A stretch of DNA of 64,000 bases from an uncultured Pelagibacteraceae bacterium (GTDB lineage Bacteria; Pseudomonadota; Alphaproteobacteria; Pelagibacterales; Pelagibacteraceae): positions 16,580 through 80,579 of the forward strand of contig CACIWX010000003.1 of the NCBI GenBank assembly GCA_902590465.1. Reading direction: 5' to 3'. This document shows positions 59,994 to 60,870 of this stretch, piece by piece. The first letter of the stretch is position 1, and each line of letters opens with the position of its first letter. The notes beneath the pieces were generated by a model. The model ran no database searches. It had not been told where the DNA came from and was given only the letters and a program-made list of their open reading frames with translations. The position numbers were made by a program, and so were the translations under genes.

Positions 59994-60302
59994 ATGTTAA
60001 AAAAAGTTAAAATTTATATTTTATCACTAATTATTTTAATTACTCTTGCAGCTTGTCAAACAGTTACTGACAAAATCGATCAAACAACGGAGTTAGAAAA
60101 AAAGGAATTAAGTAAATGGTTAAATAAAACTGAAGAGGATCTTAAAAGTTTTTATGGTCAGCCTGACAAAGTGGAATTTTTAAAAACCAGAAATAGAAAT
60201 TACGTTTATTTTACTGAAAAATATAAAATTAAGTGTGAACGTAAATTTGAGGTAAATCCTAAAAATATTGTAGTTGGTTTTAGCAGTAAAAACTGTTTTT
60301 AA
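59994..60302 (+). CDS. Small lipoprotein of unknown function
   Basis: 102 residues. Signal peptide with lipobox ITLAACQT (lipidated Cys about 21). The mature part KTEEDLKSFYGQPDKVEF resembles the loop of BamE/OmlA-type lipoproteins, where a conserved G-x-P-D turn occurs, but the similarity is weak. Two further Cys near the end may form a disulfide. No assigned role. Confidence 0.75.
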   Translation: MLKKVKIYILSLIILITLAACQTVTDKIDQTTELEKKELSKWLNKTEEDLKSFYGQPDKVEFLKTRNRNYVYFTEKYKIKCERKFEVNPKNIVVGFSSKNCF

Positions 60303-60303
60303 G

Positions 60304-60333
60304 TTACTCGCGGAGTATAAACTCCGCAAGTAA
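60304..60333. terminator. Stem-loop between lipoprotein and hsp20 genes, no U-tract
   Basis: TTACT-c-GCGGAGT-ATAA-ACTCCGC-a-AGTAA: 5 bp, C/A mismatch, 7 bp, 4-base loop, just after the lipoprotein stop and 7 bases from the convergent hsp20 stop. It copies the layout of the hairpin at 20328-20359. It probably serves as a transcript 3' end for both genes. Confidence 0.7.
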
Positions 60334-60340
60334 GGCAAGC

Positions 60341-60784
60341 TTATTTTATTTCAATAAGTCTTTTTTTCTTTATTTCAGGTATGATTTTTTCACAAGAAAT
60401 AGTAAGCAAACCATCTTTTAATTCAGCACCATTTACTTTTACATCATCTGCAATTGTAAATGATCTTGCAAAAGATCTCTGCGAAATTCCTCGATGAATA
60501 ACTTCATCACCATCTTTTTCTTCTGATCTTTTAACTTCTTTTGTTTTCACCGTTAAAAGATTATCTTCATATTCAACTTCAACATCGTCTTTATTAAAGC
60601 CAGCAACTGCTACTTCAATAGCATACTTATCTTTGCCTGCTTTTCGGATGTTGTATGGCGGATAGTTGCTTTGAACAGCAAGACTGCCATTACCAAGCAT
60701 TGATTCAAATTGATCAAACATATCATCGAAACCAATACTTAAAGGTCTAAGTGAATTAAAGATCGATAGATCCTTACTCGTCAT
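60341..60784 (-). CDS. hsp20: Small heat shock protein (Hsp20/IbpA)
   Basis: 147 residues. Alpha-crystallin domain from YNIRKAGKDKYAIEVAVAGF to DGLLTISCEKIIPE, with NDLL-like EDNLLTVK; C-terminal IPEIKK has an IxI-like motif. ATP-independent holdase for unfolded proteins. Has an AGGAGG site 4 bases from ATG that is predicted to be hidden in a thermometer hairpin, and a sigma-32-like promoter upstream. Confidence 0.95.
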   Translation of the reverse strand: MTSKDLSIFNSLRPLSIGFDDMFDQFESMLGNGSLAVQSNYPPYNIRKAGKDKYAIEVAVAGFNKDDVEVEYEDNLLTVKTKEVKRSEEKDGDEVIHRGISQRSFARSFTIADDVKVNGAELKDGLLTISCEKIIPEIKKKRLIEIK

Positions 60785-60839
60785 ATATCCTCCTTTGTTA
60801 GCAAGGTTAATTATTGGTCCCAGTTGGCAACCAATAATT
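60785..60839 (-). promoter_or_regulatory. ROSE-like RNA thermometer in the hsp20 leader
   Basis: Two hairpins in the transcript. Hairpin I: AATTATTGGT / ACCAATAATT (60839-60830 with 60818-60809), 10 perfect pairs. Hairpin II: CUUGCU-aacaa-AGGAGG (60805-60789), pairing the Shine-Dalgarno sequence with U-A, C-G, G/G, U-A, U-G and C-G, the arrangement of the conserved U(U/C)GCU of ROSE elements. An alternative CCUU/AAGG pairing also covers the site. Pairing is visible; thermal opening is inferred from the family. Confidence 0.65.
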
Positions 60840-60842
60840 TAG

Positions 60843-60870
60843 ATATGGTAATTTATTTTAAATTTTCAAG
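60843..60870 (-). promoter_or_regulatory. Sigma-32 (RpoH)-like heat-shock promoter for hsp20
   Basis: On the minus strand: CTTGAAA (60870-60864), 13 bases, then TACCATAT (60850-60843). This compares with the RpoH consensus CTTGAAA-N11-16-CCCCATNT: full -35, 6 of 8 at -10. It begins right after the end of the upstream oligopeptidase gene, so hsp20 has its own promoter. Confidence 0.7.

Follow-up and report, generated by a model that had tools for sequence, protein, structure and literature searches.

A candidate minimal ROSE-like RNA thermometer under a sigma-32-type promoter in the hsp20 leader of SAR11 bacteria

Introduction

ROSE elements are RNA thermometers in which a G/G pair is known to occur. 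The published ROSE motif is U(U/C)GCU, and the described elements closest to the one reported here are the short, two-hairpin ROSE-like elements of Pseudomonas ibpA genes, whose function has been proven experimentally (PMC3669281).

SAR11 bacteria are among the most abundant bacterial groups of the ocean and have few regulators. Among open PubMed Central papers we found no report of ROSE elements at hsp20 in SAR11 or in phages, and heat-shock genes go unmentioned in a 2009 survey of structured RNAs in Pelagibacter. Here we describe the leader of an hsp20 gene in a 64,000-nucleotide stretch of DNA (the window) that comes from a Pelagibacteraceae (SAR11) assembly; among named organisms, its closest relatives are SAR11 single cells and HIMB058. 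We consider it probable that the leader is a minimal two-hairpin ROSE-like RNA thermometer under a sigma-32-type promoter, which would place a known kind of element in a new lineage. If true, a conserved thermometer at SAR11 hsp20 would be one of few candidate direct temperature sensors, and would offer a testable link to ocean warming.

Results

Layout of the leader

The arrangement runs along the minus strand from 60870 to 60782 (Table 1), and every element that a first-pass annotation had named base by base proved to be in its place. All parts of the leader are found again in related loci, and the arrangement as a whole recurs, with small changes only, in 80 named SAR11 hsp20 loci. The set of parsed leaders used below numbers 140 and is made up of named SAR11 loci together with more divergent genera. 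Within the window, the exact string CTTGCT-N5-AGGAGG occurs a single time. The predicted fold of the leader has a z score of -2.8, and an equally good fold arose in 2 of 200 shuffled sequences.

Table 1. Features of the hsp20 locus, in window coordinates
Feature	Position	Strand	Basis or remark
-35 element CTTGAAA	60864..60870	-	motif and spacing common to SAR11 hsp20 leaders
-10 element TACCATAT, 13 nt after CTTGAAA	60843..60850	-	motif also before groES and lon
Transcription start zone (putative), foot of hairpin I	60834..60838	-	distance from -10 element to stem
Hairpin I, stem ATTATTGGTT / GACCAATAAT	60810..60838	-	fold prediction and covariation
Anti-SD strand CCUUGCU, including ROSE motif U(U/C)GCU	60800..60806	-	CTTGCT at 60805-60800; kept in leaders
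Hairpin II, proposed thermosensor, CUUGCU-AACAA-AGGAGG with G/G mismatch	60789..60805	-	sequence and register table; not the minimum-energy fold
AACAA between anti-SD strand and Shine-Dalgarno sequence	60795..60799	-	sequence
Shine-Dalgarno sequence (SD) AGGAGG	60789..60794	-	followed by 4 nt (ATAT) and ATG at 60784-60782
AGUAAGG, codons 3-5, 7-bp perfect complement to CCUUGCU	60772..60778	-	fold; invariant codons
hsp20, 147 aa, regulated gene	60341..60784	-	ORF; Pfam HSP20 PF00011, 71.4 bits

The promoter

Sigma-32-like boxes are present in 122 of 137 unique SAR11 hsp20 leaders; shuffled leaders give 5.6 and reversed ones 8. Of the 122, 118 share one spacing, of the type CTTGAA-N15-NCCATAT. 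In 117 of 124 leaders, 6-7 nt separate the end of the -10 box from the 8-bp stem of hairpin I, and it is from this distance that we infer a transcription start at the foot of the hairpin.

When genomes were scanned with a spacer of N14-17, the motif CTTGAA-N16-CCATAT was found before groES in the source genome and in two relatives; lon is preceded by it in two relatives, and hslV of a third has a near match, one base off. These groES, lon and hslV sites (L524, at G000 C1:141793, and L525, L533, L526, L532 and L523) together with that of hsp20 may outline a small SAR11 heat-shock regulon. The source assembly, which is 66% complete, has no RpoH; of 12 other genomes belonging to the genus, 9 have an RpoH that scores above the cut-off. 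With its fixed spacing in hsp20 leaders and its recurrence before other heat-shock genes, the sigma-32-like promoter put forward in the first-pass annotation is well supported at the level of sequence, and so is this half of our finding. The groES and lon genes carry the promoter motif without a strong match to the RNA model described below, and the RNA element is therefore separable from the promoter.

Hairpin I

The upstream hairpin had been described as a perfect 10-bp hairpin. Its stem does contain 10 bp, one of them U-G, but the tip is not a plain loop: a bulged G (60828) is followed by two more pairs, CC/GG (60826-60827 with 60820-60821), which close the loop AACT, giving G-CC-AACT-GG. 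All seven scored stem pairs are intact in 132 of the 140 leaders. The tip with the bulged G reads CC..GG in 129 of them and CU..AG in 11. A fixed tip, YGCC-loop-GG, stands above a freely changing stem.

In 40 diverse leaders, 52 cells of hairpin I had changes on both sides, compared with 15.6 after shuffling, a count that none of 500 shuffles matched; 92.7% of cells were paired, compared with at most 53.5% when the partners were slid. In some rows of the two MAFFT alignments (A1 and A2) the SD is misplaced, and A2 was used for these hairpin I counts only. Covariation of this strength marks hairpin I as a real RNA structure, and as more than a DNA palindrome. Both layers of heat control that had been proposed for this gene, a sigma-32 site and a ROSE plan, are thus upheld as sequence features, the promoter by its recurrence and the RNA by the covariation of hairpin I.

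Hairpin II

The motif U(U/C)GCU faces AGGAG in 138 of the 140 SAR11 leaders; 134 of these read CTTGCT and 4 CTCGCT. Across the parsed leaders the SD core is almost invariant, and the sole change of the motif within SAR11 is from UUGCU to UCGCU, as the ROSE consensus allows. Because the core of hairpin II hardly varies, covariation provides no test of it. The arms were set in register by a script rather than taken from the MAFFT alignments; in that register, the G of the outermost C-G pair is changed in 14 of 138 leaders, with no compensation at the C, and when arms were swapped between lineages the native partners were not clearly preferred. Support for hairpin II comes instead from the conservation of UUGCU, for which no function in ribosome binding is known and which changes, within SAR11, only in the way that a ROSE element would permit.

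Energy models give a different picture. The best ViennaRNA folds of the CCUUGCU strand pair it as CCUU/AAGG, or pair the whole of CCUUGCU with AGUAAGG of codons 3-5, and the SD is predicted to open only slowly between 0 and 50 C. ViennaRNA does not include a stacked G/G pair, and its other folds therefore count only moderately against hairpin II. The hairpin with a G/G pair that was originally proposed is present in its sequence elements; the models favour other pairings of CTTGCT.

Specificity and comparison with Rfam

A covariance model, R1, was built from SAR11 leaders only, with no phage sequence. In the source genome it scored 55.4 bits at the hsp20 leader, and its next best match scored 16.5. 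Over 144 SAR11 genomes it gave 94 matches at E <= 1e-7, which lie directly upstream of hsp20 wherever coordinates were compared, one (in G055) being at a contig edge. No gene except hsp20 has a strong match, each SAR11 genome with a match has one strong copy, and the next match below the strong set (27.5 bits) precedes a second hsp20.

A search with the Rfam ROSE covariance models had been suggested as a check on the first-pass annotation; at a threshold as loose as E <= 10, none of the ROSE models gives a match in the window. The other Rfam matches in the window at that level (preQ1-II at 17.7 bits, Qrr at 25.7 bits, and others) are due to chance. The segment with the Qrr score (60300-60368, plus strand; cut-off 50) lies downstream of hsp20, consists of two stacked hairpins and a T run, and is probably a terminator.

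The gathering score of Rfam ROSE_3 (RF02523), which is 43, was not reached by the best-scoring relatives, a Methylophilales phage leader (34.1 bits) and the SAR11 leader L208 (23.0 bits). Over 142 alphaproteobacterial genomes the model gave one match, which is sub-threshold, and it is therefore too narrow for mapping ROSE elements across Alphaproteobacteria. Many other alphaproteobacterial hsp20 leaders have U(U/C)GCU before the SD, often with one or two YGCC..GGG hairpins, and none of 20 that were scanned reached the Rfam threshold. Leaders with the ROSE plan thus fall below the thresholds, which implies that the Rfam models span only part of the natural range. The SAR11 element is ROSE-like and is not an Rfam ROSE member. 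In a sister family of the same order (L310-L329), the hsp20 leaders apparently represent a longer ROSE-like form: the upstream hairpins are two and of a different kind, and the SD hairpin, TTTAATCGCTTAAGGAGGATTAAA, is nearly palindromic.

Phage hsp20 leaders

The same RNA plan precedes hsp20 in the pelagiphages HTVC008M, Mosig and HTVC115P, in the Methylophilales phage Melnitz-3, and in the cyanophages P-SSM4, P-RSM4, S-ShM2 and S-SSM4. R1 scores phage leaders at up to 57.3 bits (E = 2.8e-12); the Melnitz leader reaches 31.4 bits and that of P-SSM4 28.1. Under a strict rule, the bulged-G hairpin is found in 102 of 141 unique phage leaders and in 1 reversed control, some of these hairpins being hairpin II itself, whose form also includes a bulged G; with hairpins outside the SD region only, the numbers are 86 and 1. 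TTGCT, TCGCT or TGTCT precedes the SD in 136 of the 141. In cyanophages the hairpin loop is UUCG, and in some phages hairpin II is predicted to extend to 10-11 pairs, burying the whole SD. In many phages the RNA element begins 3-4 nt after TAAATA, at the place where SAR11 has its sigma-32 site; we take this sequence to resemble the T4 late promoter, TATAAATA.

Phage and viral loci with the bulged-G hairpin and a U(U/C)GCU..AGGAG leader are L301-L309, L082-L154 and L359-L518. Some IMG/VR contigs are short and possibly mislabelled, a doubt that does not extend to the named phage genomes. A group of viral contigs (L134-L136 and L140-L142) has GACGCTTACGGAGGTC in place of U(U/C)GCU before hsp20, after a bulged-G hairpin, and this group is perhaps another anti-SD solution. 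On two viral contigs that have the hsp20 leader, a glnA-type glutamine riboswitch (64-67 bits) lies about 500 nt beyond the hsp20 leader (L106:1197-1247 and L121:3509-3559).

In a tree of Hsp20 proteins (60 rows, midpoint root only), those of SAR11 and of these phages form a group apart from every other alphaproteobacterial protein except one. The Hsp20 of SAR11 genus g9 (L247) falls inside a phage clade with support of 98/92. The data fit an exchange of hsp20 and its leader between hosts and phages.

Discussion

Our reading of the SAR11 leader as a thermometer rests on the conservation of the promoter, the structure of hairpin I, a ROSE motif that stays almost unchanged opposite the SD, and the confinement of the element to hsp20. 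We infer the start site, the folding of hairpin II in vivo, temperature-dependent translation, and any role that the element may have in seawater of 0-30 C. In the proposed mechanism, transcription from the sigma-32-type promoter would start approximately at the foot of hairpin I and give a leader of only about 54 nt. Hairpin I would be the stable structural part and would remain folded. In hairpin II, U(U/C)GCU would be paired to the SD through weak pairs and a G/G mismatch; in the cold this hairpin would block ribosome binding, and on warming it would open. Production of Hsp20 would then require both active sigma-32 and a melted RNA.

There are several alternative scenarios. One is that the leader serves autoregulation: Hsp20 would bind it, probably at the bulged-G tip, and repress its own translation until titrated by unfolded proteins, so that temperature would act through the protein. 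There is a precedent in E. coli, where IbpA acts by way of the 5' UTR of ibpA to repress its own translation (PMC10474464). The constancy of the tip above a stem that changes freely looks like a recognition feature, and the element accompanies hsp20 and no other gene. On the other hand, the same type of tip occurs in Rfam ROSE_3 and may therefore be a feature of folding, and the cyanophage loop UUCG is known for its stability. We regard autoregulation as rather unlikely; it and a thermometer are not mutually exclusive.

A second scenario concerns codons 3-5, whose AGUAAGG may be a second partner of the anti-SD strand. Of the 114 leaders of the SAR11 clade whose Hsp20 proteins start with MTSKD, 111 have AGT as codon 3 and 112 have AAG as codon 4, the exceptions being amino-acid changes. 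These choices run against codon usage in the same genes, where AAG accounts for 19% of Lys and AGT for 12% of Ser, and where AAA is preferred at 9 of 10 other invariant Lys sites. In this clade of SAR11, CCUUGCU could alternate between the SD and AGUAAGG, the helix with the coding region holding the SD and AUG in its loop, either as the main cold state or as a switch. That helix is the minimum-energy fold of the leader with 15 nt of coding sequence, and a Lys-to-Arg change in L198 (AGTAGGGAT) keeps the pairing by means of U-G. With 45 nt of coding sequence, however, the helix is outcompeted in the window fold; it is missing from phage leaders and from several SAR11 genera; L201 loses one pair; and Lys 139 also prefers AAG without having such a partner. 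A lock with two partners is rather doubtful, and the coding-region pairing would be at most a local addition, given its absence from phages and other genera.

Finally, it is improbable that there is no thermometer at all, with hairpin I shielding the 5' end of the sigma-32 transcript and CUUGCU..AGGAGG being a conserved ribosome-binding context without regulation: the Pseudomonas hairpin I is stable and may protect its mRNA (PMC3669281), and hairpin II does not covary, but UUGCU has no role in SD pairing to 16S rRNA and varies only within the ROSE consensus, and some phages lengthen the same hairpin until the whole SD is buried.

If the thermometer reading is extended to the phages, marine phages (cyanophages and pelagiphages among them) would carry working ROSE-type thermometers on hsp20, and gene and RNA would move between SAR11-type hosts and phages as a cassette, the promoter being swapped for a late-type one and the chaperone being made according to temperature during infection. 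We put this forward tentatively, as a conjecture with a little less than even prospects. If true, a swapped promoter with a retained RNA would be a clean natural test of whether selection keeps the RNA itself.

The known thermometers differ in how closely they resemble the SAR11 element. The Synechocystis hsp17 thermometer resembles it in being an RNA thermometer on a small heat-shock gene, sensing in SAR11 being presumed; it is a single short hairpin (PMC3669281), whereas cyanophage hsp20 leaders have the ROSE plan instead. Classical ROSE elements (Bradyrhizobium ROSE1, E. coli ibpA) share with SAR11 the U(U/C)GCU strand opposite the SD and the association with small heat-shock genes, in alpha- and gammaproteobacteria. 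They have three to four hairpins and the SAR11 leader two, in agreement with the first-pass description of the leader as much shorter than classical ROSE; such shortness is not new, being known from Pseudomonas ibpA (PMC3669281) and Rfam ROSE_3. The latter likewise has two hairpins, the first consisting of a stem, a bulged G and a CC..GG tip (CCG..CGG in ROSE_3), and the second having cGCu facing AGgAG, on the same plan as in SAR11. The Pseudomonas ibpA element has a leader of about 60 nt, a sigma-32 promoter, hairpin I followed by hairpin II, and U(U/C)GCU facing the SD of a small heat-shock gene, as does SAR11. The SAR11 stems differ in being A+T-rich and freely covarying, and function has been proven in Pseudomonas only. 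By analogy, the SAR11 element most likely works as the short Pseudomonas thermometers do, with the second hairpin melting and the first remaining folded.
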